A stretch of 64,000 bases of DNA from Candidatus Thermoflexus tengchongensis (GTDB lineage: Bacteria > Chloroflexota > Anaerolineae > Thermoflexales > Thermoflexaceae): the NCBI GenBank assembly GCA_016842085.1, contig JAEVEX010000061.1:27289-91288 (forward strand), in the 5' to 3' direction. The notes below the pieces were generated by a model that saw only the letters and a list, made by a program, of their open reading frames with translations, had not been told where the DNA came from and ran no database searches. Of the stretch, positions 49,428-64,000 are shown piece after piece; within the stretch, counting starts at the first letter, position 1, and every line of letters starts with the position of its first letter. The position numbers and the translations under genes were made by a program.

Positions 49428-50318
49428 TTATGGATCTCCCGGAAACACCCGCACCGGCTGCCAGCGCGCCCCCTGGCGCTCCAGCAACGCCAGCAATGTC
49501 CCATCGGGTCGGTGCACCCGGAGCCGGGGGCCAGGATAGGGCAGCGCCTTGACCGGGATAGGCTGCCCGTGCTGAAGCCGGCTCAGGATCTCCGACGATG
49601 GCGTGATCGGCTCCCAATCCGGCAGGGCATCCGCCATCGGTCGGAGATAGCGAAGCCAATTCCCAGCCCGGGCGGCGGCTTCCAGGAGCTCCCATGGGAT
49701 GGCGTCCGCCAAGGTGAAGGGGCCGCTGGCCAGCCGGCGCAGCTCGGTTAGATGAGCGCCACATCCGAGCCGCTCCCCGATATCCCGGGCCAGAGCCCGG
49801 ATGTAGGTCCCGGCGGAACAGGCGACCTCGATGGTCGCCCATGGCGGATTCCATTCCACCAGGCGGAGCTCATGGATCCGCACCCGCCGGGGCGGCGGCG
49901 CCACCGCTTCGCCGCGCCGGGCTTTTTCATACAGACGCTCCCCGCCCTGTCGGATCGCCGAGAAGGCCGGCGGAGTTTGCAGGATTTCCCCCACGAAGGA
50001 ACGCAGCGTTTCCTCGAAAGATTCCCGCGAGACCTGCACGGGTTGCTCGCTCAGGATCCGCCCCTCGGCGTCATCCGTATCCGTTCGGATCCCCAGGCGG
50101 ATCGTGGCCCGGTAGCGTTTATCGTGGCCCAGCAGGAACTCGGCCAGCCGGGTCGCATGGCCCACCAGAAGCACCAGCACCCCGGTGGCCAGGGGATCCA
50201 GCGTCCCTGCATGGCCGATCCGCCGGACGCGGGTGACCTTCCGGGCCCGCTCCACGACATCGTGCGAGGTCCATCCCTTCGGCTTATCCAGCACCAGCAG
50301 CCCGGCAGGCGTCTTCAT
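49428..50318 (-). CDS. truB: tRNA pseudouridine-55 synthase
   Basis: Makes pseudouridine at position 55 of the T-loop. The 296-residue product opens LLVLDKPKGWTSHDVVERAR and has the catalytic Asp in HAGTLDPLATGVLVL, then YRATIRLGIRTDTDDAEG and CSAGTYIRALARDIG. A C-terminal PUA-like domain (about 235-296) is present. It precedes ribF by 60 bp in the transcription direction. Confidence 0.96.
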   Translation of the reverse strand: MKTPAGLLVLDKPKGWTSHDVVERARKVTRVRRIGHAGTLDPLATGVLVLLVGHATRLAEFLLGHDKRYRATIRLGIRTDTDDAEGRILSEQPVQVSRESFEETLRSFVGEILQTPPAFSAIRQGGERLYEKARRGEAVAPPPRRVRIHELRLVEWNPPWATIEVACSAGTYIRALARDIGERLGCGAHLTELRRLASGPFTLADAIPWELLEAAARAGNWLRYLRPMADALPDWEPITPSSEILSRLQHGQPIPVKALPYPGPRLRVHRPDGTLLALLERQGARWQPVRVFPGDP

Positions 50319-50376
50319 GATGAAACTTGTATAGTTGAGTGCAAAAGAGGAAATATGTCCTTCTTTTCAATCCCAT

Positions 50377-51369
50377 TCACCGCCGCCCCTTACGCTCGCG
50401 CGGCAGGGCGTAGCCCAGGCGGCGCAGTTGCTCAGGATCCCGGCGCCAGTTCTTCCGGATCTTCACCCAGAGCTCCAGATACACGGAATGCCCCAGGAGG
50501 GCCTCGATCTCCTGGCGGGCCGCGGCCCCGATGCGCTTCAACATCTGGCCGTTCTCGCCGATCACGATCGGCTTGTGGGTTTCCTTCTCCACATAAATCG
50601 TAGCCGCGATATAGGTCAGGTTTGGATTCCGATCCACCCAATCGGTGATCTCCACGGCGATCCCGTGGGGAACCTCCTCCCGCAGCAGAAGCAGGGCTTT
50701 CTCCCGGATGAGCTCTGCCACGATCATCTGGAGCGGCTGATCCGTGAGCATCTCGGGATCGTAGTATCGAGGCCCTTCCGGAAGATAGGCAATGATGCGC
50801 TCCAGCAGGAGATCCAGGTTGTCGCCCCGAACGGCGGAGATCTGCACCTCCTCCCACGGGAAAGGAGGCTCCGCGTCCGGCGGGGTGGGGGCCAGCGCCC
50901 GGTAGGCCGTCAGGCGGCTCTCCCGGTCGGACCTCAGCAGGTCGATCTTGTTCAGCGCCAGGATCACCGGCTTGTCCGTCGCCTGCTCCTTCAGCAGATC
51001 GGCGATCATGCGATCCTCATCATCCGGCCACTGGGAGACATCGACCATGAAAACGATCACATCCGCGTCCGGTATCGTGCGCCGGGCCACTTCCACCATG
51101 TATTCTCCCAGCTTGTGGAACGGCTGGTGGATGCCCGGCGTATCCATGAAGATCACCTGAGCATCCGGCCGGGTCAGCACACCCAGGATCCGATGCCGGG
51201 TGGTCTGCGGCTTCGGCGAGACAATCGAGATCTTAGTGCCCAGGTAGGCGTTCAACAGCGTGGATTTCCCCACATTGGGCTTGCCGATAATGGCCACGAA
51301 GCCGGAACGATGGCCTGGGGGGACCTCCTCGTATTCCGGGAAAACCAGCGACGGCTCCTGCGCATCCAC
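50377..51369 (-). CDS. era: GTPase Era
   Basis: An essential GTPase that binds 16S rRNA during 30S assembly. The 330-residue protein has G1 GKPNVGKST, G2 KPQTTRHRILG, G3 DTPG, G4 NKID and G5 SAVRGDN, then the C-terminal KH domain (about 230-320, with ETHKPIVIGENGQMLKRIG). I place the start at GTG 51369, preceded by GGGGAGGAAGCCGATCC. The first in-frame ATG (51447) lies inside a REP palindrome, so it is unlikely to be used. Confidence 0.95.
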   Translation of the reverse strand: MDAQEPSLVFPEYEEVPPGHRSGFVAIIGKPNVGKSTLLNAYLGTKISIVSPKPQTTRHRILGVLTRPDAQVIFMDTPGIHQPFHKLGEYMVEVARRTIPDADVIVFMVDVSQWPDDEDRMIADLLKEQATDKPVILALNKIDLLRSDRESRLTAYRALAPTPPDAEPPFPWEEVQISAVRGDNLDLLLERIIAYLPEGPRYYDPEMLTDQPLQMIVAELIREKALLLLREEVPHGIAVEITDWVDRNPNLTYIAATIYVEKETHKPIVIGENGQMLKRIGAAARQEIEALLGHSVYLELWVKIRKNWRRDPEQLRRLGYALPRERKGRR

Positions 51370-51432
51370 GGATCGGCTTCCTCCCCTGGGATTTTTATGG
51401 GCAGCGCCCTGCCCGGTTATATTTTGGCCCAT

Positions 51433-51460
51433 GTAGGGCAACTGCAAGCAGTTGCCCTAC
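51433..51460. repeat. REP palindrome, copy 2
   Basis: GTAGGGCAACTGC, AA, then the reverse complement; identical in its inner 26 bases to 42125-42150. It lies in the leader of era, between era and the DUF2085 gene. Confidence 0.85.
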
Positions 51461-51578
51461 GCCTTCAGCTGTAGTATCAGGGGCCGCCAGGGGGCAACCC
51501 CCAAACACCTTTCCCCCCTCCGCGGCCTTTCGGACCCCATTGGGAGGGGAGGATCCTTCCAGTGCGGGGGGCACCCCT

Positions 51579-52202
51579 TCAGCGCCCCTCCTCCCATGCG
51601 GCCCACTCCAGAAGCCACAGGCGCGAGAAAAACGTCCAGGCGAAGGTGCTCCCAAACAAAGCCCCCGTGAGAACCCGCAGGAACGGCGTGCTTTCCCGGG
51701 GGGTGAAAGGGCCGATCAGGGCCAGGACGTAAGACACGAACTGGGAGCCGCCATCGAGGGCGATAGGGGCCAGGCCGAGGGCGAGGAAAGCCCACAGGGG
51801 CAGAGGACGCCAGGGACGCCTTCGGAGGATCATCGCGGTGGCCGCCAGCGCCATCGCACCGTAAATGGCCAGATCCCGCTGGCAGAGAGCGAGCTTCCAT
51901 CCGATCCGGGGATCACCGGTGAAAGCGCGAGGCCAGGGATAACCGGGCAAGCCCTCCAGGCCCACGCGCTCCCTCAGATCTTCCAGGGAATAAGTGGGAT
52001 GCTCTCCGAACAGAAAAAAGGAGCGCTGAGGAAGTTGATGGCATGTGAAAGAATAGAGGGTATAAAGAATGGACGCGGATCGCTGGAGCCCGGCCTGCAT
52101 CATGACGGGAGGCAGGATCGCCCCCATCACATAGATCCAGAGCCCGAGCGTGAGCCATCGAATGGAGGATGGGATCCCGCGTTCCGCCGTCTTGACACTC
52201 AT
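51579..52202 (-). CDS. DUF2085-family membrane protein
   Basis: A 207-residue protein with about four to five hydrophobic segments. The family marks are present: FTCHQLPQRSFFLFG, LCQRDLAIYGAMAL and LAPIALDGGSQ, with a Cys/His pair that may bind metal. Function unknown. It is transcribed away from the tRNA-Leu gene and ahead of era, separated from it by the REP element. Confidence 0.85.
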   Translation of the reverse strand: MSVKTAERGIPSSIRWLTLGLWIYVMGAILPPVMMQAGLQRSASILYTLYSFTCHQLPQRSFFLFGEHPTYSLEDLRERVGLEGLPGYPWPRAFTGDPRIGWKLALCQRDLAIYGAMALAATAMILRRRPWRPLPLWAFLALGLAPIALDGGSQFVSYVLALIGPFTPRESTPFLRVLTGALFGSTFAWTFFSRLWLLEWAAWEEGR

Positions 52203-52239
52203 CCGAGGCTCCTTTTAGAATGAAGCATGCGGAGAACGC

Positions 52240-52323
52240 GCCGGGGTGGCGGAACAGGAAGACGCGCCTGACTCAAAATCAGGTGGCCGCAAGGCCGTGC
52301 GGGTTCGACTCCCGCCCCCGGCA
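52240..52323 (+). tRNA. tRNA-Leu (anticodon CAA)
   Basis: An 84-base class II tRNA. Acceptor arms GCCGGGG (52240-52246) and CCCCGGC (52316-52322) pair fully, with discriminator A at 52323. The anticodon stem CCTGA/TCAGG encloses CTCAAAA, giving anticodon CAA at 52274-52276. A long variable arm (GGCCGCAAGGCC) and a T-arm with TTCGACT are present. CCA is not encoded. It reads UUG codons. Confidence 0.96.
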
Positions 52324-52558
52324 CTCGCCGCTTATTGTAGCCTCGTCCTCCATCGCCCGGAAAGCCAGGCGGTGAGGGTGCCCTCCCTGCTGTTGCCCTC
52401 CAGCTGTGAGAGGAAGAAGAGGAAATCGAGGATCACGACGGTGAGGAATTGCCGCCGGATTCGAACCGATGCCTCGAATGCATTCCAGGACCAGCGCCGC
52501 CCGCGAGGCCTTCCCAGGACGCTCTGATGAACGCTTCCCTGGCGCCCACTGATACCTT
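52324..52558. other. gap between tRNA-Leu and crtB
   Basis: 235 bases with no gene I can support. A short minus-strand motif (GGTTCGAATCC near 52455-52470) resembles a T-arm but has no matching acceptor. No hairpin terminator was found for crtB. Confidence 0.4.
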
Positions 52559-53512
52559 TCAAGCCATCTTTCCTGTTATCTCGCGGCGCAAGGCCCATCG
52601 TAATCGGATCAGACGCCACAGTCGTTCCCATCCGCGCAGCGCTGCCCGCCGGCGGAACACATCGAAATCATTCCGTTCGATAACTTCCAGGATGCCCTGG
52701 TAGAGATCCGCAGCGGCAGCGATGGCAAACCGGGCTTTGCGTGGAAGCAACGCAATGCCCGACCAGGCCTCCGCATACAGCTGCCGGGCCCGACCGATCT
52801 GAAACCGCATGAAAGCCCTCCAGCGGGAATCCACCCGCCGGGCGCGAAGATCGTCCTCGCTCAGGCCGAAGGCCCGCAGCTCGTGCAACGGCAGATATAG
52901 CCTTCCTATCTCCAGATCCTCTCCCACATCCCGCAGGATATTGGTCAGTTGAAGAGCGATCCCCAGACGCACCGCAAAGGGGATCGCCTCGGGGGAGCCA
53001 CCGATGATCCGCATGCTCATCAGACCCACTGTGGAGGCCACCCCATAGCAATACGCGGCCAGATCCTCAAAGGTCTCCATGCGAACCGGCCTCAGATCCT
53101 GAGCGACACCGTCCATGAACTGTTCCACCAGACCCGTGGGGATGCGATAGCGCGTCCGCACATGCGCCCAGGCCAGTGCCACCGGTTCCTCCGCCGGCGG
53201 ACTCGAAGAGAGGGCCAGCGCGCGCCAGCGCGCCCAGCGCACCTCCCGATTCTTACCCCCCCTATCCACCAGATCGTCGGTCACACGGCAGAACGCATAC
53301 AGCACCCGAATCGCCCGCCGGGTCTCCGCCGGCAGAAGGGCTGAAGCCAGATGGAACGAACGACTATGGACCCGCAGAACAGCCTCGCAAATCCGATAGG
53401 CCCTATCCAGGATCTCGCCGGAAATCCCTTCCGCCTCCGCCACCGGGCTGTTCCACCCCTCCCAGGCTCTCTGCACCAGGACCTCTTCCCAGCTCAGATG
53501 GCCCGCTCCCAT
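52559..53512 (-). CDS. crtB: phytoene synthase
   Basis: Joins two GGPP molecules into phytoene, the first carotenoid step. The 317-residue protein has the Mg-binding aspartate motifs VTDDLVDRGG and NILRDVGEDLEIG, with RLYLPLHELRAFG after the second. ATG 53512 has GAGGGAGGAG ahead. It is transcribed divergently from crtI through a shared palindromic control region. No GGPP synthase gene lies in the window. Confidence 0.95.
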   Translation of the reverse strand: MGAGHLSWEEVLVQRAWEGWNSPVAEAEGISGEILDRAYRICEAVLRVHSRSFHLASALLPAETRRAIRVLYAFCRVTDDLVDRGGKNREVRWARWRALALSSSPPAEEPVALAWAHVRTRYRIPTGLVEQFMDGVAQDLRPVRMETFEDLAAYCYGVASTVGLMSMRIIGGSPEAIPFAVRLGIALQLTNILRDVGEDLEIGRLYLPLHELRAFGLSEDDLRARRVDSRWRAFMRFQIGRARQLYAEAWSGIALLPRKARFAIAAAADLYQGILEVIERNDFDVFRRRAALRGWERLWRLIRLRWALRREITGKMA

Positions 53513-53539
53513 CTCCTCCCTCGCACTCAGGATGGTTTC

Positions 53540-53568
53540 ATGATAACAGGATGTCTATATTTTGTCAA
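53540..53568 (-). promoter_or_regulatory. crtB promoter
   Basis: On the minus strand: TTGACA (plus-strand 53563-53568), a 17-base spacer and TATCAT (53540-53545). The expected transcript starts about 20 bases before the crtB ATG. The -35 is inside the left arm of the operator. Confidence 0.8.
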
Positions 53569-53588
53569 AATAAATCTTGACAAAATAT
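53557..53588. promoter_or_regulatory. 12-bp inverted-repeat operator shared by crtB and crtI
   Basis: ATATTTTGTCAA (53557-53568) and TTGACAAAATAT (53577-53588) are exact reverse complements separated by AATAAATC. Each arm contains the consensus -35 box of one of the two divergent promoters. MerR-type CarH/LitR repressors are known to bind AT-rich sites over -35 boxes of crt promoters. The regulator gene at 55318 is the obvious candidate binder. Confidence 0.85.
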
Positions 53589-53605
53589 GAACAATACGAT
53601 ACAAT
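53577..53605 (+). promoter_or_regulatory. crtI operon promoter
   Basis: TTGACA at 53577-53582, a 17-base spacer and TACAAT at 53600-53605. The transcript should start near 53612, leaving about 113 bases of leader before crtI, with a small hairpin (GGGTGAGT...GCTCACCC) around 53645-53670. Confidence 0.85.
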
Positions 53606-53725
53606 GGAGAAGGTGCAGGAGGAGCATGGGAGGACGGGACAGGGGGTGAGTCAGGGTCCGAGCTCACCCCCGTGCCCGTTCCCGCGGAGGGCCCCTGATG
53701 CCCAATTCCCCGAACGGAGGACAGA

Positions 53726-55273
53726 ATGGCTGCTCACGCGGTGGTGATCGGGGCGGGACTGGGCGGTCTGGCCGCTGCCGCACGGCTGGCCCGTCAGGGA
53801 TGGAAGGTGAGTGTCCTGGAGAAGAACGCGGAACCCGGAGGGCGCTGCGGCCGCCTGATTCGGGAGGGCTATCGCTGGGACACCGGTCCCACCCTGATGC
53901 TGATGTCCCATGTATTCGCCGAGACGTTCGCGGATCTGGGGGAACGGATCGAAGACCACCTGGAGCTCATCCGGGTGGATCCCACATATGCGGTCTCATT
54001 CTGGGACGGATCCCGGATAGTGATGTCCTCGGATCTGGCCCATATGCGCGAGCAGATCGAGGCAATGGAACCAGGGGCCTTTGATGGTTTTCTGCGCTAT
54101 CTCCGAGATGGATATCGCTTCTATCGTCTGGCCCTGGAGCGCTTTGTCGGAAGGAACTTCCGCTCTGCCCTGGAGTATTTCAGTCCACAACAGATCCCGC
54201 TTCTGTTTCGGATGCGCGCCCTGCGCCGGCATTACGACGAAACCCGTCGTTACGTCCGGGATCCCCGGCTGCGGGCAGCGCTGACCTTTCAGGATATGTA
54301 TCTGGGCCTGAGCCCTTACGAGGCCCCAGCTACTTATGCGCTGCTGGCCGCTTCCGAGCTGACAGAAGGAGTCTGGTTCCCCCGGGGCGGCATGTATCGA
54401 ATTGTGGAGGCCCTCGCTGCCCTGGCGGAAGGATTGGGAGTTCGATTGATTTATCAGGCTCCTGTGCGGTGGATCGAGATCGAGGGTGGCCGGGCGACCG
54501 CGGTGCTTCTGGAGGATGGTCACCGGATCTCCGCGGATCTGGTGGTGGTCAACGCCGATCTGCCGTACGCATATCGTCACCTGCTGCCGCCGGGACCTGA
54601 GGCGCAGCGGCTTGAGCGAATGCGCTACAGCTGCGGGGTGATCACCTTCTACTGGGGGCTGGATCGCCAGGTCCCTGCTCTTTATCCCCACCATGTCTTC
54701 CTCGCCGGGGATTACCGGGCCAGCTTCGAGCGGATCTTCCGGTATCATGATCTCCCGGATCCTCCCAGCTTTTACCTGCACGTTCCCTCCCGTCTGGATC
54801 CAACCGCTGCTCCGGCAGGATGCGATGCGGTGATGGCCCTGGTTCCGGTGGGGCATCTTCCACAGGACCGTGCCGATGTCGAAATCGAATGGATCGCCCG
54901 GGCGCGGGAGGCCATCGCAACGCGCCTGGCTCAGACCCTGGGCCTGAACGACTTCATGCGATGGGTCCGCGTGGAGGTCGTTCGCGCGCCAGGGGACTGG
55001 AAGCGATTATACAATCTGGAACGGGGGGCCGCTTTCGGCCTGGGCCATCAATTCTCCCAGGTTGGCTATCTCCGCCCGTCCAATCGTCATCCTCGCTACC
55101 CGAATGTTTATTTCGTGGGGGCGAGCACCCACCCGGGCACCGGGCTCCCCATGGTCCTGCTCTCCGCCAAGCTGGTAGCGGAACGAATCCGGGACGAGTT
55201 CCCAGCGGCCGCATCCCGGCGGATTGTCCTGGGGCCATCCACCTCAACCCACCGCTCCAGCCTCCCTGCCTGA
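53726..55273 (+). CDS. crtI: CrtI-type phytoene desaturase
   Basis: Introduces the double bonds that turn phytoene into lycopene (or neurosporene). The 515-residue FAD enzyme begins AVVIGAGLGGLAAAARLA with the dinucleotide-binding motif, then NAEPGGRCGRL, and ends with NVYFVGASTHPGTGLPMVLL, the CrtI C-terminal signature. ACGGAGGACAGA precedes the ATG. It is first in the plus-strand operon and opposite crtB. Confidence 0.93.
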   Translation: MAAHAVVIGAGLGGLAAAARLARQGWKVSVLEKNAEPGGRCGRLIREGYRWDTGPTLMLMSHVFAETFADLGERIEDHLELIRVDPTYAVSFWDGSRIVMSSDLAHMREQIEAMEPGAFDGFLRYLRDGYRFYRLALERFVGRNFRSALEYFSPQQIPLLFRMRALRRHYDETRRYVRDPRLRAALTFQDMYLGLSPYEAPATYALLAASELTEGVWFPRGGMYRIVEALAALAEGLGVRLIYQAPVRWIEIEGGRATAVLLEDGHRISADLVVVNADLPYAYRHLLPPGPEAQRLERMRYSCGVITFYWGLDRQVPALYPHHVFLAGDYRASFERIFRYHDLPDPPSFYLHVPSRLDPTAAPAGCDAVMALVPVGHLPQDRADVEIEWIARAREAIATRLAQTLGLNDFMRWVRVEVVRAPGDWKRLYNLERGAAFGLGHQFSQVGYLRPSNRHPRYPNVYFVGASTHPGTGLPMVLLSAKLVAERIRDEFPAAASRRIVLGPSTSTHRSSLPA

Positions 55274-55317
55274 AAAGGACCCTTCCTCGCCCTGGCCGCT
55301 GATGGAGAGGAGAAGGG

Positions 55318-56646
55318 ATGAAACCGGAAGCCGGGCAGGAGATTCCAGTGCACAATCTGAAGACCGTGGTCCGTGAGACAGGGATCTCGCCCCACACGCT
55401 CCGGGCATGGGAGCGACGATACGGGCTCCCTCGCCCGGCCCGCACGCCGGGGGGCCATCGGCTGTATTCCCAGCGGGACATTGAGATCATCCGCTGGCTG
55501 ATGGCCCGACAGGCCGAGGGCATGTCCATCGGACGCGCCGTCGCCCTCTGGCGGACCCTGGAGGCGAAGGGGCTGGATCCGCTGCAGCAACACTCCGCCA
55601 GGACAGCGGCTGCTCCCTCTGGGGCTGAGCCCTCGCTGCAGGCCCTCCGGGAGGGCTGGGTGGATGCCTGCATGCGCTTCGATGAGGAGGAAGCCGAAGA
55701 CATTTTGACCCAGGCCTTCGCGATGTATCCCCCGGAGGTGATTGTTCTGCGACTTATACAGCCCGCCCTGGAGGAAATCGGGGAACGCTGGTATCGAGGC
55801 ACGGCCACCGTCCAGCAGGAGCACTTCGCCTCAGCCCTGGCCATCCGTCGGCTTCACGCCCTGATCGCCGCTGCGCCATCCCCGCTTCGATCGGAGCGCC
55901 TCCTGATCGCCTGCCCGCCGGGGGAGATGCACACCCTCCCTGCGCTCTGGGCCTCCTTCCTCCTGCGCCGACGAGGATGGCCAGTCGTGGACCTGGGCGC
56001 GGATGTGCCATTGATCCGCATGAAGGAAGCCCTGACAGCGATCCGCCCCCGGCTGGTGATTATGACCGCCCAGATGCTCAAAACGGCTGCAAGCCTGGCG
56101 GATATGGCCGAACCTGTGCGGGAAATGCAGGTCCCCATGGCCTACGGCGGACGGATTTTTCAGCGAAGGCCTTCCCTCAGGACGCATATCCCCGGCGTTT
56201 ACCTGGAGGGGCAATGGGAGGATCTTCCAAACCTCGTCGAGGCGGTTCTACGCGGGGATCTATCTCCGCATTTTATCCCTCTGCCTGAGATCTACCGGCA
56301 GGCCCTGATCCAGTATCGAGCTGTCCGCGCCTCCCTGGAGGCCTCTTTGCGACTACAGCTTGACCACAAGATCGCAGAGACAGAGCTGGAGATCGGCTTT
56401 CAAGAGCTGGGGAATGTGATTGAGGCCGCCCTGCGATTGGGGGACCCCGGGGCCGTGCGAATCGAAGTGGAGTGGATTATCCATCTCGTCCATCATCGCC
56501 ATCGACCGTTAACAGGGCTATTGCGTTATCTGGAGGCTTACGCGATCGCTCTACGCAACCATCTGCCTGACGATCCGGTGGTGGCCAGCCTGGCAAACCA
56601 TCTGGAGGCATCGATCTCTTCCGCACGGGAGAGCGGTCTCTCATGA
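55318..56646 (+). CDS. CarH/LitR-like MerR regulator with B12-binding domain and extra C-terminal domain
   Basis: The N-terminal MerR HTH (about 10-80) has HTLRAWERRYGLPRP. A helical cap (about 105-185) contains GERWYRG (Trp158) and QQEHFAS (Glu168-His169). The cobalamin domain (about 190-315) has PPGEMHTLPALW, whose His205 would be the lower axial ligand, and AYGG at 276-278. CarH is a light-sensitive B12 repressor of crt genes. Residue 159 is Tyr where the Thermus CarH has His132, by my alignment. The protein is 442 residues; CarH is usually about 290, and residues 320-442 form an extra helical domain. ATG has GAGAGGAGAAGGG. Confidence 0.85.
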   Translation: MKPEAGQEIPVHNLKTVVRETGISPHTLRAWERRYGLPRPARTPGGHRLYSQRDIEIIRWLMARQAEGMSIGRAVALWRTLEAKGLDPLQQHSARTAAAPSGAEPSLQALREGWVDACMRFDEEEAEDILTQAFAMYPPEVIVLRLIQPALEEIGERWYRGTATVQQEHFASALAIRRLHALIAAAPSPLRSERLLIACPPGEMHTLPALWASFLLRRRGWPVVDLGADVPLIRMKEALTAIRPRLVIMTAQMLKTAASLADMAEPVREMQVPMAYGGRIFQRRPSLRTHIPGVYLEGQWEDLPNLVEAVLRGDLSPHFIPLPEIYRQALIQYRAVRASLEASLRLQLDHKIAETELEIGFQELGNVIEAALRLGDPGAVRIEVEWIIHLVHHRHRPLTGLLRYLEAYAIALRNHLPDDPVVASLANHLEASISSARESGLS

Positions 56647-57098
56647 AATTTCGATATTCCTTCGAAGTGCGTGCGCCCATAGAGAGAGTGATGTGCTTTC
56701 ATCAGGATCCGATGACTTTGAGGCGGCTCACGCCGCCTCTACCCGGTATGCGCTGGGAGCAGCAGGAGACCCCCAGGCCCGGCTCCCGGGTCCGGTTCTC
56801 CTTCGGGATAGGCCCCGTGCGGATCCGCTGGACGGCACGCCACGTGGAGGTCTCACCACATGGATTTGTGGACGAGCAGGAGGAGGGGCCGTTCGCCCGA
56901 TGGCGTCACCATCATCGCTTTGAGGCCATCGGGCCGGCGAGCACACGGATCCTCGACGAGATCGAGGCGGATCTGCCGGGGCCCCCACTGCGCCGGGCTG
57001 TGGCGTGGGTGATCTGGATGGGGCTGCCGCTGCTCTTTGCCTATCGAGCCTGGAAAACCCGATGCATGCTGGAAGGAGGAGACCGTTGCGTCCCGTGA
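56643..57098 (+). CDS. SRPBCC-fold protein
   Basis: A 151-residue protein of the START/Bet v1-like superfamily: FRYSFEVRAPIERVMCFH at the start, then a beta sheet (GSRVRFSFGIGPVRIRWTA, FARWRHHHRFEAIG) and a final helix (LPLLFAYRAWKTRCML). Such domains bind hydrophobic ligands; in carotenoid clusters they may hold carotenoid or isoprenoid intermediates. Its ATG overlaps the regulator stop (ATGA), and it overlaps the next gene by 13 bases. Ligand unknown. Confidence 0.8.
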   Translation: MKFRYSFEVRAPIERVMCFHQDPMTLRRLTPPLPGMRWEQQETPRPGSRVRFSFGIGPVRIRWTARHVEVSPHGFVDEQEEGPFARWRHHHRFEAIGPASTRILDEIEADLPGPPLRRAVAWVIWMGLPLLFAYRAWKTRCMLEGGDRCVP

Positions 57099-58627
57099 TC
57101 GTGGTCGGCGCCGGGATCGGCGGGCTGACATCCGCTGCCATCCTCGCCCGTTATGGCGTGCCCGTGATGGTCCTGGAAGCCCAGGCGTATCCCGGGGGAT
57201 GCGCTTCGACATTTTATCGACGCGGCTTCCGATTCGACGCGGGAGCTACCCTGGCCGCCGGGTTCGGGTCAGGTATGCCCCTTCATCGGTTAGGGGAGTT
57301 TCTCGGGCTGGATTGGGGAATCCATCCAGAGCCCATTGCCATGCAGGTGCATTTATCGGACGGGCAGACCATCACCCGCTGGGCGGATCGAGGACGCTGG
57401 CGGGAGGAACGTCTACGAGCCTTGGGGCCAGATGGAGAGCCTTTCTGGATATGGCAGGAGCGCATCGCAACCGTCCTGTGGACGATGGTCCAGAAAGGAT
57501 GGGCCTGGCCACCCCAGCGCCTCCGGGATCTCCTGCGAAATCTCCGGGTACTCCGCGCCATCGGGTTCGCTGTCCTGCAGGAAGGGAGGCTGGGCTGGAT
57601 TCAGGACGCCTTCCGGCCCGTCGCCAGCCGCCTCCCCTCCGGCAATCGAAGGCTTCGCGAGCTCGTCGACGGTCAACTGTGGATCAGCGCCCAGACAACA
57701 GCTGAACGCGCCAACGCGCTCTACGCGGCGGTGGCCTTAGATCTTCCCCACACGGGGGTCGGCTGGCTTACAGGGGGCATCGGAACGATCGCGGCCCGGC
57801 TGGCTGCTGCCATCCTCCAGCGGGGAGGCCAGGTCCGTTACCGCCACGAGGTAGTCGCGGTCCGACTGCAAGGGGACGGCGCGTTTCGGGTGGAGGTTCG
57901 TGGTCGGGGCGAGCTGGAGGCCGAAGGGGTGATCCTGAATATGCCGCCAGCTGCAGCCGCTCAACTGCTGGGGGAGGCCGCGCCTGCCCGATGGCGGCGC
58001 ATGCCGGCTGTTCCCCCGGATGGATGGGGGGCCTTTGTGGTCTATGCGGCCGTGGCTGAAGACGTCATTCCACGCGATCTTCCGCTTCATCACCAGATTC
58101 TGCAGGGAGGGCCTCTGGAAGAAGGAGGGGAAGTGCTCCTCTCCATCAGCCCTGCGGAGGATCCTTCACGGGCACCCCGCGGATTCCGGGCGCTCACTTT
58201 GAGCACCCACACCGATCTCCAGCGCTGGTGGATGCTGTTCCACCAGGATCGAGAGGCATATGCACAACGCAAGAGCGAGATGACAGCGCGCATCCTCAAC
58301 ACGGCGACCCGTGTCCTTCCCCGGCTGCTGGATGGCCTCGTCTGGGCCGAGGCGGCCACCCCCGTCACCTTCCAGCGGTTTACCCAACGACCCATGGGGT
58401 GGGTAGGTGGGTTTCCTCAGATCCGCCTGGGACGCGGATGGAGACCACGGATCTACCCCCGCATGTATCTGGTTGGAGACAGCGTTTTCCCGGGCCAATC
58501 GATCCCTGCCGTAGCCCTTGGGGCCTGGCGGGTCGCTGAGGACATGCGAGAGGAGCTTGCCGACCTGCCCCGCCGGCTCTGGATCATCGATCACCCGATG
58601 AAGACTCTGATGGAGGGAGTCCGATGA
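57086..58627 (+). CDS. second CrtI-like FAD oxidoreductase (CrtO/CrtD/CrtISO group)
   Basis: About 513 residues from TTG 57086, which has GGAGGAG five bases ahead. It starts PVIVVGAGIGGLTSAAILA with the FAD motif, then EAQAYPGGCASTFYRRGF, and ends with RMYLVGDSVFPGQSIPAVAL, the C-terminal flavin motif. Relatives are ketolases (CrtO), extra desaturases (CrtD) or carotene isomerases. The GCASTF region is typical of CrtO/CrtISO types. It likely modifies the product of crtI. An ATG at 57062 is an alternative start. Confidence 0.85.
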   Translation: MRPVIVVGAGIGGLTSAAILARYGVPVMVLEAQAYPGGCASTFYRRGFRFDAGATLAAGFGSGMPLHRLGEFLGLDWGIHPEPIAMQVHLSDGQTITRWADRGRWREERLRALGPDGEPFWIWQERIATVLWTMVQKGWAWPPQRLRDLLRNLRVLRAIGFAVLQEGRLGWIQDAFRPVASRLPSGNRRLRELVDGQLWISAQTTAERANALYAAVALDLPHTGVGWLTGGIGTIAARLAAAILQRGGQVRYRHEVVAVRLQGDGAFRVEVRGRGELEAEGVILNMPPAAAAQLLGEAAPARWRRMPAVPPDGWGAFVVYAAVAEDVIPRDLPLHHQILQGGPLEEGGEVLLSISPAEDPSRAPRGFRALTLSTHTDLQRWWMLFHQDREAYAQRKSEMTARILNTATRVLPRLLDGLVWAEAATPVTFQRFTQRPMGWVGGFPQIRLGRGWRPRIYPRMYLVGDSVFPGQSIPAVALGAWRVAEDMREELADLPRRLWIIDHPMKTLMEGVR

Positions 58628-59208
58628 ATGTCTACGCCTTGACGGCACTGGAGGAGTTCTACCGGCAGGCTATGAGTGCCTACATCCCGCAGGGCGAGGA
58701 TCTGCTTTATCGGGTTCGAAGAGACGATCTGAGCCACCTTTCGTTCCGCTACACGTTCTCCGTCGAGGCAATGACTCACATCAGCCATATCCTGGAAGAT
58801 GCCGCAGCCGCTCAGCGGGGCGAGGCCGATCTTCATGTTTCCTTCCAGCGTCTCTCCCGGCTGCTTTCCCAGATATCTCGTTACCGTCACCTTGCTGGAT
58901 CCCTGCATGGACTCTGGATCTACGGATCATGGGACGTGCCAGACGTAGATACATTTCGCCTGAATAAACGCACCACCCTGATCAATACGGAAGGGACCCC
59001 GCTGGAAGCTTACTGGTTCGTGATCGTCCAGGGCCCGGGGATCGGGATGTGCCTTCTGGCTCGGGAGGTGCCATCCCTGATCCATCAGGGTCGCTACTAT
59101 GAGGGCTTTTACACCTTCGAACGATCCGTGGCCCTGGAGGCGATCGGGATCCTGCATCGGATCTTCCCGGAGCATGTGCCAGATCCGACGGCCGGGGAGA
59201 GGAAATAA
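58624..59208 (+). CDS. DICT-like sensory-domain protein
   Basis: A 194-residue protein without a DNA-binding or catalytic domain. The C-terminal two-thirds (about 70-190) follow the DICT pattern: HGLWIYGSWDVPD, EAYWFVIVQGPGIGMCLLAR and GRYYEGFYTFERSVALEAI. DICT domains occur in light- or redox-linked regulators in haloarchaea and bacteria. ATG overlaps the preceding stop (ATGA) and its own stop touches the photolyase start. A sensor or partner for the CarH-like regulator or photolyase is plausible. Recognition is from memory of the family. Confidence 0.6.
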   Translation: MNVYALTALEEFYRQAMSAYIPQGEDLLYRVRRDDLSHLSFRYTFSVEAMTHISHILEDAAAAQRGEADLHVSFQRLSRLLSQISRYRHLAGSLHGLWIYGSWDVPDVDTFRLNKRTTLINTEGTPLEAYWFVIVQGPGIGMCLLAREVPSLIHQGRYYEGFYTFERSVALEAIGILHRIFPEHVPDPTAGERK

Positions 59209-60591
59209 ATGACGCGCCGGGTCATCTGGTGGATCCGCCGCGATCTCCGCTTAAGGGATAACCATGCCCTTGTCGCGGCCTGGGAGACAGCAGAGGAGGT
59301 GATCCCGGTCTTTGTTCTGGATCCGGGTCTGCGTCATGCCCCCACCCGCCGTCGCGCCTTCCTCCTCTCCGGGCTGCGAGCGCTGGATGAGGAGCTGCGC
59401 GCCCGCGGTGGCTATCTGGTCGTTCGTGAGGGGCCCCCGGTGGAGATCCTGAGCGAGCTGATGAGGGAGACCGGATCCACAGCCGTGTTCGCAGAAGGAG
59501 ATGTCAGCCCTTACGCCCGGCGGCGGGACACCGAGGTTGCCTCCCGGCTTCCCCTCGTTCGCATGGGCTGGCCGACCATCCATCCACCCGATGCCCTGCA
59601 GAAGGAAGACGGAGGCCCTTACCGCGTATTCGGGGCCTTCCGGCGCCGCTGGTGGAGCCTCGCCATTCCGAAGATCCCTCCAGACGAGGCCATCCCCAGC
59701 CGCTGGCGTATGCCGGCCGGAATTCCGACGCTCCCCCTCCCGGAAATAAGGGCCCCTGAAGGGTTCCCGGCTGGAGAGCGGGCGGCCTGGGCACGCCTGC
59801 GATCATTCGTGGAGGGAGAAGAGGCCCCGATCTTCCGCTATCGAGCCATACGGAGGCGGGTCGATGGAGAGGCCGGAGCACGCCTCTCGCCTTATCTGCG
59901 CTTTGGGATGATCTCGCCGCGGCAGGCGCTGCAGGCCGCCCTCGAAGCCGAAAGCCGCGCGCCTGATGCCGAAAGCCGCCGCAGCGTCCGGATGTGGATC
60001 GACGAGCTGATCTGGCGGGATTTCTTCATGGCATTGCTTTATGCCTTTCCGGATCTACGACGGCGAAGCTTACGGCCATCGTGGAAAACCCTTTCCCCAC
60101 CGGGAGACGATCAGGACCTGGAGGCCTGGCGGGGCGGCCGCACCGGCTACCCTCTAATCGACGCCGCGATGCGCCAGCTGGCCCAGGAGGGCTGGGTGCC
60201 CAACCGGGGGCGGATGATAGCCGCCTTCTTCCTGGCTCGACACCTTCACATCGACTGGCGCAAGGGCGAACGCTGGTTCCTGGAGAACCTGATTGATGGC
60301 GATCCGGCAATCAATGCGGGAAACTGGCAATGGGCCACCGGTGCCGGCCTGGATCCCCTTTCCACCCTGCGCTCCTTCGATATGATCCGCCAGGCCCGTC
60401 AGGCTGACCCCCACGGGCGATACATCCGGCGCTATCTCCCGGAGCTGGCCCAGGTTCCTGATGCGTTCATCCACGCCCCGTGGATGATGCCTGAGGATGT
60501 GCAACGGGAAGCAGGATGCCGCATCGGCTGGGACTATCCCCGGCCACGGCTCAAAGCCGCGGAAGGCACAGAGGCTCAAAACCGAGGATGA
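59209..60591 (+). CDS. phr: deoxyribodipyrimidine photolyase
   Basis: Repairs cyclobutane pyrimidine dimers with blue light. The 460-residue protein has the N-terminal antenna domain (about 1-130, VIWWIRRDLRLRDNHALVAA) and the FAD domain with ELIWRDFFMALLYAFP, LIDAAMRQLAQEGWVPNRGR and DGDPAINAGNWQWATGAGLDP. It begins directly after the DICT-like gene stop. Linking photolyase to crtB, P450 and a LitR/CarH regulator is known from Thermus thermophilus. Confidence 0.95.
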   Translation: MTRRVIWWIRRDLRLRDNHALVAAWETAEEVIPVFVLDPGLRHAPTRRRAFLLSGLRALDEELRARGGYLVVREGPPVEILSELMRETGSTAVFAEGDVSPYARRRDTEVASRLPLVRMGWPTIHPPDALQKEDGGPYRVFGAFRRRWWSLAIPKIPPDEAIPSRWRMPAGIPTLPLPEIRAPEGFPAGERAAWARLRSFVEGEEAPIFRYRAIRRRVDGEAGARLSPYLRFGMISPRQALQAALEAESRAPDAESRRSVRMWIDELIWRDFFMALLYAFPDLRRRSLRPSWKTLSPPGDDQDLEAWRGGRTGYPLIDAAMRQLAQEGWVPNRGRMIAAFFLARHLHIDWRKGERWFLENLIDGDPAINAGNWQWATGAGLDPLSTLRSFDMIRQARQADPHGRYIRRYLPELAQVPDAFIHAPWMMPEDVQREAGCRIGWDYPRPRLKAAEGTEAQNRG

Positions 60592-60601
60592 GGGAATCGG
60601 G

Positions 60602-61897
60602 ATGCCCATACGAAGGACCTCTCTGCTTCAGGCTGCATGCCGGATGGTTTGCACCCGATCTCCGCTGGAAGGGCTGATGGCCCTTTCGGAGATTTACGGG
60701 GAAGCATTCTGGCTGACCTGGCCCGGTTTCCGCGCGCTGGTCGCTGCCGGATCACGCGCCGCGCGGACAGTGCTTCTCAAGAAACGGGAGCACTTTCGCT
60801 CCCGCGTTGACGGCGATCCGGTTGCGCAGCTTTTCCGCCGGGGCCTTCTGGTGACTGATGGCCCCCTGCACGAGGCCCTGCGGCGGGAAATGGAGCCGTT
60901 CCTGCGCGGGCCTGAGCTGGCCCGCTGGATCCCGATGATCCTTCGGCGGACCGATGAGCGGATCCATCACTGGGCGTCCCGGAAGCGAGTGGATTTGCTG
61001 GAGGAGTTTCGGCTGTTGACTCTGGGAATCCTGATGGAATCCCTCTTCGGCCTTTCCCTGGAAGACACCGAGCTACAGCTTCTGGCGCAGATGCTGAAGA
61101 TGGCGGTGGCCTACATCTCTCCAGGCATCTGGCTGATATGGAGGAACGGACCCCGCTGCATCGATATATCCGATCTCCATCGTCTGGACATGCAGATCCG
61201 TCAGTGGATCCAGGATCGCCGGAAGGAAAATCGCCATGATGGGGATCTGCTGTCCCACTGGATGCGATGCCGGTGGATGGATGACGAGCTGATCCGGGAC
61301 CAGATGCTGACGCTGATGATCGCCGGGCACGATACGGTGACCGCCTGGCTGGCCTGGACGATGGGCCTGTTGCTGTCTCATCCGGGAGAGATGAAACGGA
61401 TCCAGGCTGAGCTGTGGAGCGTTGCGGGCCATCGACCTCCATGTTTCGAGGACCTGGGGCATCTGCCGTATCTCGAAGCGGCGGCCCGGGAATCCATGCG
61501 CTTATACCCCCCCATTCCTATCGTGAACCGCATGGCCGGTGCGCCAATCGCCGTGGAAGGTTATACCGTTCCCATCGGGACGCGTGTGATGATTCCGATT
61601 TATGTGCTACACCGGCGACCGGAACGATGGGAAGAAGCGAGTCGTTTCCAACCCGAGCGTTTCCTGAGGCCCGGCGGAGTCCCTACAGGTGGCTTTGATT
61701 ATCTTCCCTTTGGTGGAGGTCCTCGATTCTGTGTGGGAGCTTCCTTCGCCTGGATGGAGGGTCGGATCATCCTGATCCGGATTCTTCAACGAGTGCGAAT
61801 GGAACCGGCTTTCGGGAGGCTGACCGCGCGACTGGGAGCGACCCTGGAACCCCGAGGCGGGTTGCCGGTGACGATCCGCGATATTCGTGAGGCGTAG
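60602..61897 (+). CDS. cytochrome P450, probable carotenoid oxygenase (CYP175-like role)
   Basis: A 431-residue soluble P450. It has the I-helix LTLMIAGHDTVTAW, the ExxR region LEAAARESMRLYPPIPI, the PERF-type motif FQPERFL and the heme loop FGGGPRFCVGASFA with the ligand Cys. In Thermus, CYP175A1 hydroxylates beta-carotene in the same kind of cluster, so ring hydroxylation is the likely job. ATG 60602 follows GAGGGAATCGGG. Electron donors are not in the window. Confidence 0.88.
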   Translation: MPIRRTSLLQAACRMVCTRSPLEGLMALSEIYGEAFWLTWPGFRALVAAGSRAARTVLLKKREHFRSRVDGDPVAQLFRRGLLVTDGPLHEALRREMEPFLRGPELARWIPMILRRTDERIHHWASRKRVDLLEEFRLLTLGILMESLFGLSLEDTELQLLAQMLKMAVAYISPGIWLIWRNGPRCIDISDLHRLDMQIRQWIQDRRKENRHDGDLLSHWMRCRWMDDELIRDQMLTLMIAGHDTVTAWLAWTMGLLLSHPGEMKRIQAELWSVAGHRPPCFEDLGHLPYLEAAARESMRLYPPIPIVNRMAGAPIAVEGYTVPIGTRVMIPIYVLHRRPERWEEASRFQPERFLRPGGVPTGGFDYLPFGGGPRFCVGASFAWMEGRIILIRILQRVRMEPAFGRLTARLGATLEPRGGLPVTIRDIREA

Positions 61898-61908
61898 GAG
61901 AAAACAAG

Positions 61909-62997
61909 ATGGATTTCCCATGGATCAACATCGCCGGGGCGGCAATCGCCGGTGGACTATCCGTTCTGGGATACCAGCGAGCTCGCATGCTCCCGGTCCC
62001 ACCGCCCGTCCCATCCGATCGGCCATTGCCCGCCCTATCCATTATTGTGCCTGCGCGGAATGAGGCCGATCAGCTGCCCGATTTGTTGCAGTCCCTGAGG
62101 CAGCTGCAATACCCCGGCCCGCTGGAGATCTGGGTGGTTGATGATGGCTCCACAGATGGGACCGGAGAGATCGCCCAGGCATGGGGCGCACAGGTCATCC
62201 GGGTCGAAGGCCCCCCTGCTGGCTGGCTGGGAAAGCCTTACGCTCTTCACCAGGGGGCGCTACAGGCACGAGGGGAATGGCTGCTGTTCACCGATGCAGA
62301 CACACGCCATGCCCCGGACAGCGCCGCTCGGGTGATGGGGTGGGCGATCGAGCATGGCCTGGACGGCGTTACTCTCTTTCCGGCGTTCGAAGTCCGGAAC
62401 ACCATGGAGGCAGCGGTGATCTCCGTGGCCTTTGCGGGATGGTTCGCCGCGCTCACGGATTTTCAGGGGATCATCAACGGCCAGTACCTGCTGATCCGTC
62501 GCTCGACATACGAAGCAAGTGGCGGGTTCGCGGCTGTACGCGGAGAGCTGCTGGAAGACCTCGCGCTGGGCCGTCGGCTGCAGCGCTCAGGATATCGGGT
62601 GGCTCTTGTCAACGGCCGCCCGCTGGTGCGGGCTCGCATGAGCCGGAGCCTGGGTCATCTCTGGCAAGCGATGGCTCGCTGGAGCGGAGGCGCGCTGGAT
62701 CAGCCCCCAGAACGGCGTCTGCTTGCCGTTCTGCTGGTGGCTGGAATGGCCACGCCGTTGAGGCTTTTATGGCCATCGGGACATCCGGCCGCTTTGATAG
62801 GTTATGGGGCCTCCTGGCTGATCGCTGCCCTGGGGCTGTTGCTGTGGGCCCGTCGTATCGGCTCGCCATCCGCCTCGATCCTCGCTCCCCTGGGGGCAAC
62901 CCTGGTGGCCAGCGCAGGGATCTACGGGTGGCTGAGCACAGGATTGGGATGGGGGCTCAGCTGGAAAGGCCGTCACGTGCGGCGCCAGATGTCATAA
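61909..62997 (+). CDS. GT2-family glycosyltransferase, probable carotenoid glycosyltransferase
   Basis: A 362-residue membrane-associated GT-A enzyme. The N-terminal helix is followed by LSIIVPARNEADQLPDLLQS, VVDDGSTDGTGEIA, LFTDADTRHAPDS and LLEDLALGRRLQRSGYRV, the donor and catalytic sites, then about three C-terminal helices. CruC/CrtQ-type enzymes with this layout glycosylate hydroxylated carotenoids; hopene-associated HpnB is a similar-looking alternative. The position after the P450 favours a hydroxyl-carotenoid acceptor. Confidence 0.8.
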   Translation: MDFPWINIAGAAIAGGLSVLGYQRARMLPVPPPVPSDRPLPALSIIVPARNEADQLPDLLQSLRQLQYPGPLEIWVVDDGSTDGTGEIAQAWGAQVIRVEGPPAGWLGKPYALHQGALQARGEWLLFTDADTRHAPDSAARVMGWAIEHGLDGVTLFPAFEVRNTMEAAVISVAFAGWFAALTDFQGIINGQYLLIRRSTYEASGGFAAVRGELLEDLALGRRLQRSGYRVALVNGRPLVRARMSRSLGHLWQAMARWSGGALDQPPERRLLAVLLVAGMATPLRLLWPSGHPAALIGYGASWLIAALGLLLWARRIGSPSASILAPLGATLVASAGIYGWLSTGLGWGLSWKGRHVRRQMS

Positions 62998-63073
62998 AGC
63001 TTGCTCAAGGCCCGAAGTTGGGGCTGGATGATCCGGACCCTTATCGAAGAAGCGGCAACGCCAGGAGGCTTAT

Positions 63074-63859
63074 ATGAGCTATATCGAGTTTATAGCCCTT
63101 TTTCTGATCGCCCCGATTCTGATCGTAGGCATACAGGTAATCCGACGCACTCAGCGAGGGGAGATCCCATCCCATGTTGCCCGCCGGGGGCTTTATGGAA
63201 CGCTGGCCCTCGCCGGGATCGCCCTTGTGTATACCACGCCATGGGATAACGTCATGGTCGAACGGGGGATCTGGGGATATGATCCCCATCGGGTTCTCGG
63301 CATCATCATCGGCTGGGTGCCTCTGGAGGAATATCTTTTCTTCGTGCTTCAACCGATCCTGATCGGCCTCTGGGGGCTCCTGAGCTGGACCCCGATTCGG
63401 GAAAGCCCTATCGTTCCCTCAGCAGGCCTCCGATGGGGAGCCGGATTGATCATGGTGGGCGCCTGGGCCGTCCTCCTCGCTATGGAAAATCGGTTCGGGC
63501 CACAGTGGGCATACTTCAAGGCTATTCTCGCCTGGGGACTGCCCCCGCTGATCCTGCAAATCGGATTCGGAGCTGATCTTCTGTGGGACAATCGCCGATC
63601 TCTCCTGATTCGATGGATCCCACCCGCGCTCTTTCTGAGCGCGGCGGATCGTCTGGCCATCGCTGAAGGAATCTGGTTCCTGAATCCGGATCTTACCACG
63701 GGCCTGACTGTGCTGAGCCTTCCTGTTGAGGAAGGATTGTTCTTTTTTCTGACCAGCTTGCTGGTTGCAGGAGGATGGACTCTGTGGATGCATCCGGCAG
63801 CGCGGCACCGCCTCCTGATCAGGAAACCCCAGCGTATTGCAGGAAGGACAAGGGCATGA
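63074..63859 (+). CDS. crtYcd: lycopene cyclase of the fused CrtYc/CrtYd (CarR-like) type
   Basis: A 261-residue membrane protein with about seven helices in two halves. Half one has TTPWDNVMVERGIWGY and GWVPLEEYLFF; half two has LPVEEGLFFFLTSLL. The duplicated PxEE(x)FF motifs are the mark of the bacterial/archaeal heterodimeric cyclases, fused in one chain. It makes the ring ends of gamma- or beta-carotene. ATG 63074 follows GGAGGCTTAT. Its stop overlaps the plsY start. Confidence 0.9.
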   Translation: MSYIEFIALFLIAPILIVGIQVIRRTQRGEIPSHVARRGLYGTLALAGIALVYTTPWDNVMVERGIWGYDPHRVLGIIIGWVPLEEYLFFVLQPILIGLWGLLSWTPIRESPIVPSAGLRWGAGLIMVGAWAVLLAMENRFGPQWAYFKAILAWGLPPLILQIGFGADLLWDNRRSLLIRWIPPALFLSAADRLAIAEGIWFLNPDLTTGLTVLSLPVEEGLFFFLTSLLVAGGWTLWMHPAARHRLLIRKPQRIAGRTRA

Positions 63860-64000
63860 CGGATGTTTTGAGTGTGATGCTCTGGACGCTGATCGCGGGC
63901 CTATCGGGCTCGTTGCCGCTGGCCTACTGGATCGGCCTCTGGGCCCTCGGAGTGGATATCCGCCGCTATGGCGATGGGAACCCGGGAGCCATGAACGTGA
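63856..64000 (+). CDS. plsY: glycerol-3-phosphate acyltransferase PlsY, 5' part
   Basis: The first 48 codons are in the window. They encode GLSGSLPLAYWIGLWALGVD and IRRYGDGNPGAMNV, matching the PlsY start (GSxPxxYxxxxxxGxDIRxxGSGNxGAxN). The enzyme transfers an acyl group from acyl phosphate to glycerol 3-phosphate in the membrane. The ATG overlaps the cyclase stop (ATGA), so it is translationally coupled to the carotenoid operon. The gene runs past the window end. Confidence 0.85.
   Translation, partial: MTDVLSVMLWTLIAGLSGSLPLAYWIGLWALGVDIRRYGDGNPGAMNV

Follow-up and report, generated by a model that had tools for sequence, protein, structure and literature searches.

Carotenoid genes and predicted divergent promoters

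The window, by which is meant the whole stretch of 64,000 nucleotides analysed, carries crtB and crtI in divergent orientation, and the CarH-like gene that the initial annotation placed two positions downstream was confirmed as the second gene on the crtI side (Table 1). It is followed on the same strand by genes for an SRPBCC protein, a CrtD-like desaturase, a DICT protein and a photolyase/cryptochrome family protein, and later for a cytochrome P450, a glycosyltransferase and a lycopene cyclase-domain protein; judged by the common strand and the short or overlapping junctions, this crtI-side run is a probable operon. The DICT-domain protein (PF10069; 58624-59208) is a stand-alone protein within the carotenoid/photolyase gene run, and five of the six genus relatives likewise have its gene next to the one for the photolyase, the stretch from the sixth being too short to tell. 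An Rfam scan of 50000-64000 returned only a tRNA above the gathering score.

Direct reading of the intergenic sequence bore out that TTGACA lies within both arms of a perfect 12-bp inverted repeat (ATATTTTGTCAA, 53557-53568, and TTGACAAAATAT, 53577-53588), and a promoter scan placed each TTGACA 17 bases from a -10 box, with a match of 11/12 in either direction: TTGACA-17-TATCAT toward crtB (53568-53540, minus strand) and TTGACA-17-TACAAT toward crtI (53577-53605, plus strand). The annotated arrangement of two divergent predicted carotenoid promoters with their -35 boxes inside one repeat structure thus stood, and between 52400 and 55400 no other promoter-like site was detected (shuffle mean 0.7, sd 0.7). 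The inverted repeat extended to 20-nt arms, 85% complementary, once mismatches were allowed. As a class, the perfect 12-bp inverted repeat is by itself not rare, examples with a 3-20 nt spacer occurring at six distinct places in the window with the present one counted; dinucleotide shuffling produced one in a single case out of 2000 for 53440-53760, and in no case out of 2000 for the 66-bp core.

Table 1. Positions of genes, predicted promoter elements and repeats in the window.
Feature	Position	Strand	Remarks
crtB, phytoene synthase	52559..53512	-	SQS_PSY PF00494, E 2.6e-77
dr3, crtB side, CCTGTTATCAT	53540..53550	-	degenerate, 3/5 consensus positions
Predicted crtB -10, TATCAT	53545-53540	-	last six bases of crtB-side dr3
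DR2, crtB side, AATATAGACAT	53551..53561	-	5/5 positions of nAnnTnnACAn
Palindrome	53557-53588	.	perfect 12-bp arms, 8-nt spacer
DR1, crtB side, TATTTTGACAA	53562..53572	-	5/5 positions
Predicted crtB -35, TTGACA	53568-53563	-	within crtB-side DR1
DR1, crtI side, AATCTTGACAA	53573..53583	+	5/5 positions; abuts crtB-side array at 53572/53573
Predicted crtI -35, TTGACA	53577-53582	+	within crtI-side DR1
DR2, crtI side, AATATGAACAA	53584..53594	+	5/5 positions
dr3, crtI side, TACGATACAAT	53595..53605	+	weak, 2/5 in strict register; ACA one base early
Predicted crtI -10, TACAAT	53600-53605	+	within crtI-side dr3
GC-rich inverted repeat (potential hairpin), predicted crtI leader	53634..53679	+	10-bp stem
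crtI, phytoene desaturase family	53726..55273	+	TIGR02734, 468 bits
CarH-like regulator gene, 442 aa	55318..56646	+	follows crtI
Probable remainder of crtI-side gene run	56643..63859	+	same strand, short/overlapping junctions

The 11-bp repeat at the site and in related genomes

CarH occupies tandem 11-bp direct repeats of the form nnnnTnnACAn or nAnnTnnACAn with one DNA-binding domain per repeat, in contrast to the palindromic sites of typical MerR proteins, and its operators contain three repeats in T. thermophilus and four in B. megaterium (PMC9304148, PMC8156234). The arms of the palindrome are the inner repeats of two such outward direct-repeat arrays. The segment 53540-53605 consists of six abutting 11-mers that run outward from 53572/53573 and extend from one -10 box to the other, the two arrays meeting head to head with zero bases between them and their outer ends coinciding exactly with the -10 boxes; the four inner repeats are complete in all consensus positions and the two outer ones degenerate (Table 1). 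With TTGACA inside DR1 on each side, the repeat overlaps the -35 boxes of both predicted carotenoid promoters. The outward arms of 17 nt, taken from TTGACA to the ACA of DR2, show two differences, both at free bases of DR2 (GA vs AG), as is expected of TnnACA repeats.

Tandem pairs with the full nAnnTnnACAn consensus were confined, within the 64-kb window, to these two arrays. Shuffled 2000 times each, neither 53440-53760 nor the 66-bp core ever yielded 11-bp TnnACA pairs on the two strands together, while a pair on at least one strand appeared in 3 and 26 shuffles, respectively. Given the base composition of these 66 bp, TnnACA would fall at the position needed in both arms with a probability of about 6e-5. 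Three exact tandem repeats were found nowhere in the genome. By its sequence the site is a CarH-type operator, and its recognition unit is probably not the palindrome; no description of a head-to-head form of such an operator was found in the open-licence full texts searched.

For comparison, the 20 best-scoring carH loci of relatives with a carH match were taken, eight of which (six from the genus and two from the class) had divergent crtB and crtI, giving together with the window nine intergenic regions chosen without reference to the motif. Same-strand TnnACA pairs counted over spacings of 6-25 bp comprised 12 at 11 bp, one each at 13, 14, 23 and 25 bp, two at 22 bp, and none at 12 bp or in the range 6-10 bp. 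Each of the nine regions has a pair at 11 bp, although L037 and L039 seem closely similar, as do L040 and L041, which brings the number of independent cases below nine. When the nine regions were shuffled, 11-bp pairs averaged 0.06, with a maximum of 1 in 300 rounds.

The -35 to -35 gap, by contrast with this constant step, was 8 nt in the window, 18 in L036, L037, L039, L040 and L041, 19 in L044, and 30 in L038 and L049 (the values for L036 and L038 being computed by hand from printed positions), and the gap in L040 and L041 would be 7 if taken from a second TTGACA, which lies one repeat closer. Because of this variation (8, 18, 19 and 30) the palindrome is not conserved, and it was ruled out as a conserved unit; what the relatives keep is an 11-bp array.

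A head-to-head junction of 7-8 nt was kept in all seven genus regions, with a partner repeat matching at 3/4 in L036 and L038, and was not kept in the two outgroup regions. The crtB TTGACA falls on the first repeat in the window, on the second in five genus members and on the third in L038, in whose array one step is 12 bp; this displacement is accounted for by TTGACA being at once the -35 consensus and a perfect TnnACA repeat. In the genus relatives the crtB-side array comprises at least two good repeats and comes as close as 7 nt to the crtI -35. On the crtI side, a second unit of at least 3/4 was found within the genus only in the window and L037/L039, and four of the six genus relatives have DR1 alone at that level; since the crtI side is thus mostly a single repeat, the presence of two full arrays does not hold across the genus. 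On the crtI side of L036 and on both sides of L038, the -10 box spaced 17 nt from TTGACA matched at 3/6 and failed the promoter filter.

Twelve further carH loci of the same class, without divergent crtB and crtI, indicated that array and carH tend to travel together: an 11-bp pair lay at most 300 bp upstream of the carH match in seven, where 0.21 such pairs were expected (density 11 pairs per 188,970 bp), and in two of the seven, L045 and L053, it was on the strand opposite to carH. The other five had no exact 11-bp pair within 300 bp of carH, one of them (L047) having three tandem repeats with TATAAT some 830 bp upstream of the gene and the remaining four having none nearby. Spacings in the 330-bp regions upstream of carH were seven at 11 bp and one each at 10, 12 and 18 bp; because pairs at 12 bp (15) outnumber those at 11 bp (11) over the whole of the 12 loci, only this upstream clustering is informative.

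Genome-wide, TTGACAN5TnnACA matched four times in 3.89 Mb, twice at the crtB-crtI site, and ten times in the nine genus genomes, eight of these matches, including all six from the relatives, lying between crtB and crtI; the reversed pattern, used as a control, gave three matches in the same nine genomes. G002 and G007 lack the pattern because the array there reads TGGACAN5TTGACA, and zero matches were obtained from the two genus genomes with neither crtB nor a full-length carH match. A related-locus search of genome contigs with the CarH protein as query confirmed no locus. The two genus genomes that lack crtB, G004 and G008, are also the two in which carH has no full-length match, as though the light-pigment island were lost or gained in one piece.

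The predicted regulator

The product of the gene following crtI combines MerR DNA-binding, B12-binding helical and Rossmann domains (PF13411, PF02607 and PF02310, all over cut-off) with a C-terminal globin-like domain (residues about 320-442) that matched photocobilins in a structure comparison based on one model of the whole protein. The C-terminal extension was present in 31 of 31 aligned sequences, namely that of the window and 30 of 120 listed homologues. The best PDB sequence matches were to T. thermophilus CarH, with a near-identical WERRYG...RTPGGHRLYS stretch, and the protein is 56% identical to one from Thermoflexus hugenholtzii, which makes a Thermoflexus-like member of the Chloroflexota the probable host; its score against the CarH equivalog NF052513 was 161 bits, below the curated cut-off of 400. 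With its additional globin-like domain and the Tyr described below, it is CarH-like rather than a plain CarH.

The adenosylcobalamin (AdoCbl) light signature, given in PMC11796333 as GxxW, EH, GxxH and GxxxP, read as complete in the alignment (GERW, EH, GEMH and GADVP), and the genome contains a corrinoid adenosyltransferase family match over cut-off. The place of T. thermophilus CarH His132 is taken by Tyr (Tyr159 of the regulator), as in 30 of the 31 aligned sequences (the window and 30 of the 120 listed homologues), the remaining one having Phe. This His, which follows the Trp, provides the upper ligand in T. thermophilus CarH once light has acted. The place varies in the published family (PMC11796333), 'many' CarH homologues having His there (PMC9304148). 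In one study, H132A in the T. thermophilus B12 domain left minimal light-driven change, and an earlier report cited with that result has the full-length H132A protein disassembling in light (PMC10442372). CtMerR, with Arg at this place, still monomerises (PMC11796333).

Like the photocobilins SasPcob and AbDPcob (PDB 8j2w, 8j2x and 8j2y), the regulator has its globin-like domain after the B12 domain, but those proteins are described (PMC10979010) without the MerR domain that is present here. Their bilin-holding Asp270 pairs, when aligned by hand, with Glu363 of the regulator, so that Asp270 itself is not kept, and the residue at that place in the T. hugenholtzii protein is not acidic. As heme oxygenase (PF01126) was found in none of the nine genus genomes, that of the window included, red-light sensing is not claimed. 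This photocobilin-shaped MerR-B12 protein is the likely binder of the arrays, and the naming of the CarH-like product as natural binder was favoured by the linkage of array and carH described above.

Proposed operation of the site and alternative explanations

It is considered quite probable that two head-to-head CarH-type arrays cover the predicted crtB and crtI promoters and are bound in the dark, and released in light, by the predicted B12 sensor. In the dark, AdoCbl-bound oligomers would sit on both arrays and block both promoters. With DR1 over the -35 box, DR2 in the spacer and dr3 over the -10 box, each array would cover one promoter core, and one AdoCbl-bound oligomer per array would therefore be likely to exclude RNA polymerase. 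In light, splitting of the Co-C bond would cause the oligomers to fall apart and free both promoters, so that the crtB and crtI gene sets would be switched on together; as carH lies within the crtI gene run, the repressor would probably control its own synthesis by negative feedback. One oligomer per array, hence two per site, is the simpler count and is preferred, binding and oligomer number both being deduced, as are the light response and the transcript starts, which are predicted near 53533 (minus strand) for crtB and near 53612 (plus strand) for crtI. Promoters so close together should also impose mutual exclusion on the polymerases.

The initial annotation had instead assigned both arms to a single repressor dimer or tetramer, which would have to be a symmetric protein reading the 12-bp palindrome in classical MerR or TetR style and blocking both -35 boxes. 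The arms are indeed perfect at the window site, perfect or near-perfect versions occur in L165 and in four Nitrospira/Nitrosospira records (retrieved by a scan whose pattern itself required the 8-nt gap), and the 7-8 nt junction runs through the seven genus regions, the partner repeat matching at 3/4 in two of these. This assignment was not supported and is judged improbable: among the relatives the distance from TTGACA to TTGACA varies and the arms differ while the 11-bp step stays, the 17-nt arms of the window depart from one another only at the two free DR2 positions, and the family structures, as presented in PMC8156234, put one domain on each direct repeat. A somewhat better, though still rather doubtful, account, whose odds overlap with those of the preferred explanation, invokes a single CarH-type oligomer that lies on one array or across the junction and represses both promoters by steric exclusion, the second array being a by-product of a strong -35. 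S. cellulosum offers a precedent (PMC9304148), and the genus fits this account in having crtB-side arrays of at least two good repeats that approach the crtI -35 to within 7 nt, often with one repeat on the crtI side; against it, both window arrays possess two exact repeats, and the crtI-side DR2 falls in the promoter spacer, where RNA polymerase needs no TnnACA.

Two explanations without a CarH-type protein carry much less weight. That the palindrome is simply two back-to-back consensus promoters, served by mutually exclusive divergent RNA polymerases and no regulator, agrees with the 11/12 match of both promoters and with -35 boxes 8 nt apart, at which distance polymerases could hardly bind both promoters simultaneously, but it does not account for the presence of 11-bp repeats in the spacers, for their being conserved in nine of nine regions or for the carH linkage elsewhere, and is very unlikely. 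Regulators of the PpsR/CrtJ type recognise TGT-N12-ACA. Binding of the site by some other carotenoid regulator such as these has next to no likelihood: TGT and ACA are opposed across the centre, but with a spacing of N14 at the window site, and the genome search returned no match over the curated cut-off, the sole match scoring 22 bits vs 275, on which ground PpsR/CrtJ was dropped as the binder.

The preferred reading of two CarH-type arrays shares with the T. thermophilus and B. megaterium CarH operators, as described in PMC9304148 and PMC8156234, the 11-bp step, the consensus, the -35 overlap, the carotenoid targets and a MerR-B12 regulator. It departs from them in that two opposed arrays are joined centrally, each built of one degenerate and two exact repeats, in place of a single array of three or four, and in the extra C-terminal domain of the regulator. 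In S. cellulosum a candidate CarH site likewise lies between divergent carotenoid genes (crtI-carH and crtE-crtD), and PMC9304148 has a proposal that it controls both divergent promoters; there one three-repeat site (exact/degenerate) serves both directions, whereas here there is one array per promoter. The T. thermophilus litR/crtB locus is similar in its divergent carotenoid promoters, shared intergenic region and adjacent CarH/LitR gene, the divergent pair being litR (carH) and crtB rather than crtB and the crtI-carH run (PMC7662524). For M. xanthus CarA, inverted repeats were first proposed, and later authors judge them not to be the recognised element (PMC9304148).

A scan of public genomes with a 42-base head-to-head pattern that required the 8-nt gap matched at least 118 loci. 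A CarH homologue lay beside the site in four of the 118 matches listed (L086, L116, L165 and L181), all from records titled Chloroflexi or Anaerolineales, and L116 and L181 also have divergent crtB and crtI; in the other 114 of the 118 listed, tblastn (E up to 1e-10) found no CarH homologue in the fetched stretch, and most other listed matches are probably due to chance. TTGACA formed both inner hexamers in seven of the matches listed, namely L086, L165, four Nitrospira/Nitrosospira records and L164. In the last of these, which is gammaproteobacterial, the gene for a MerR protein that lacks a Pfam B12 domain (L164:2018-2959) stands between the repeat site and a photolyase gene. L164 was dropped as support for an operator of its MerR gene, the site overlapping the 3' end of that gene and not its start.

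The four Nitrospira/Nitrosospira records (L102, L136, L150 and L160) carry TGTCCATAGTTTGTCAA-N8-TTGACAAACTATGGACA. In L102 a gene of the glutathione peroxidase family (PF00255) follows shortly downstream of the site, and open frames that by eye resemble this gene adjoin the site in the other three. Of the four Nitrospira-type genomes, three encode CarH-like proteins aligning over the MerR and B12 parts (best E at most 1.7e-28), and the fourth gave only a short MerR match. The site in these records is possibly a light/oxidative-stress site for their own CarH-like proteins.

A broader proposal, offered tentatively and held at rather less than even confidence, is that the MerR-B12-globin light sensor of Chloroflexota is a DNA-binding photocobilin that reads CarH-type 11-bp repeats, that the double array is a recurring two-way switch found also in Nitrospira-type genomes, and that promoters, their -35 hexamer being a unit of the repeat, move along the array 11 bp at a time. 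No description of a DNA target for B12 light sensors of this branch, which have the additional globin-like domain, was found in the open-licence full texts searched. For them, the reading as two CarH-type arrays puts a precise operator code in place of a vague palindrome. That reading would also give a simple account of divergent promoters under one light sensor, in which a promoter could move by one repeat without leaving control since the -35 consensus is already a repeat unit, and it suggests a compact two-way light-controlled part from a probably thermophilic source.

The GC-rich inverted repeat of the predicted crtI leader, located 18-41 nt after the -10 box, has a stem of 10 bp in the window and could act as an RNA hairpin or as a DNA palindrome. 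Stems of 15-16 bp, with several different sequences, occur in five of the six genus relatives (L036-L041), and that of L038 is of only 8 bp with one mismatch.
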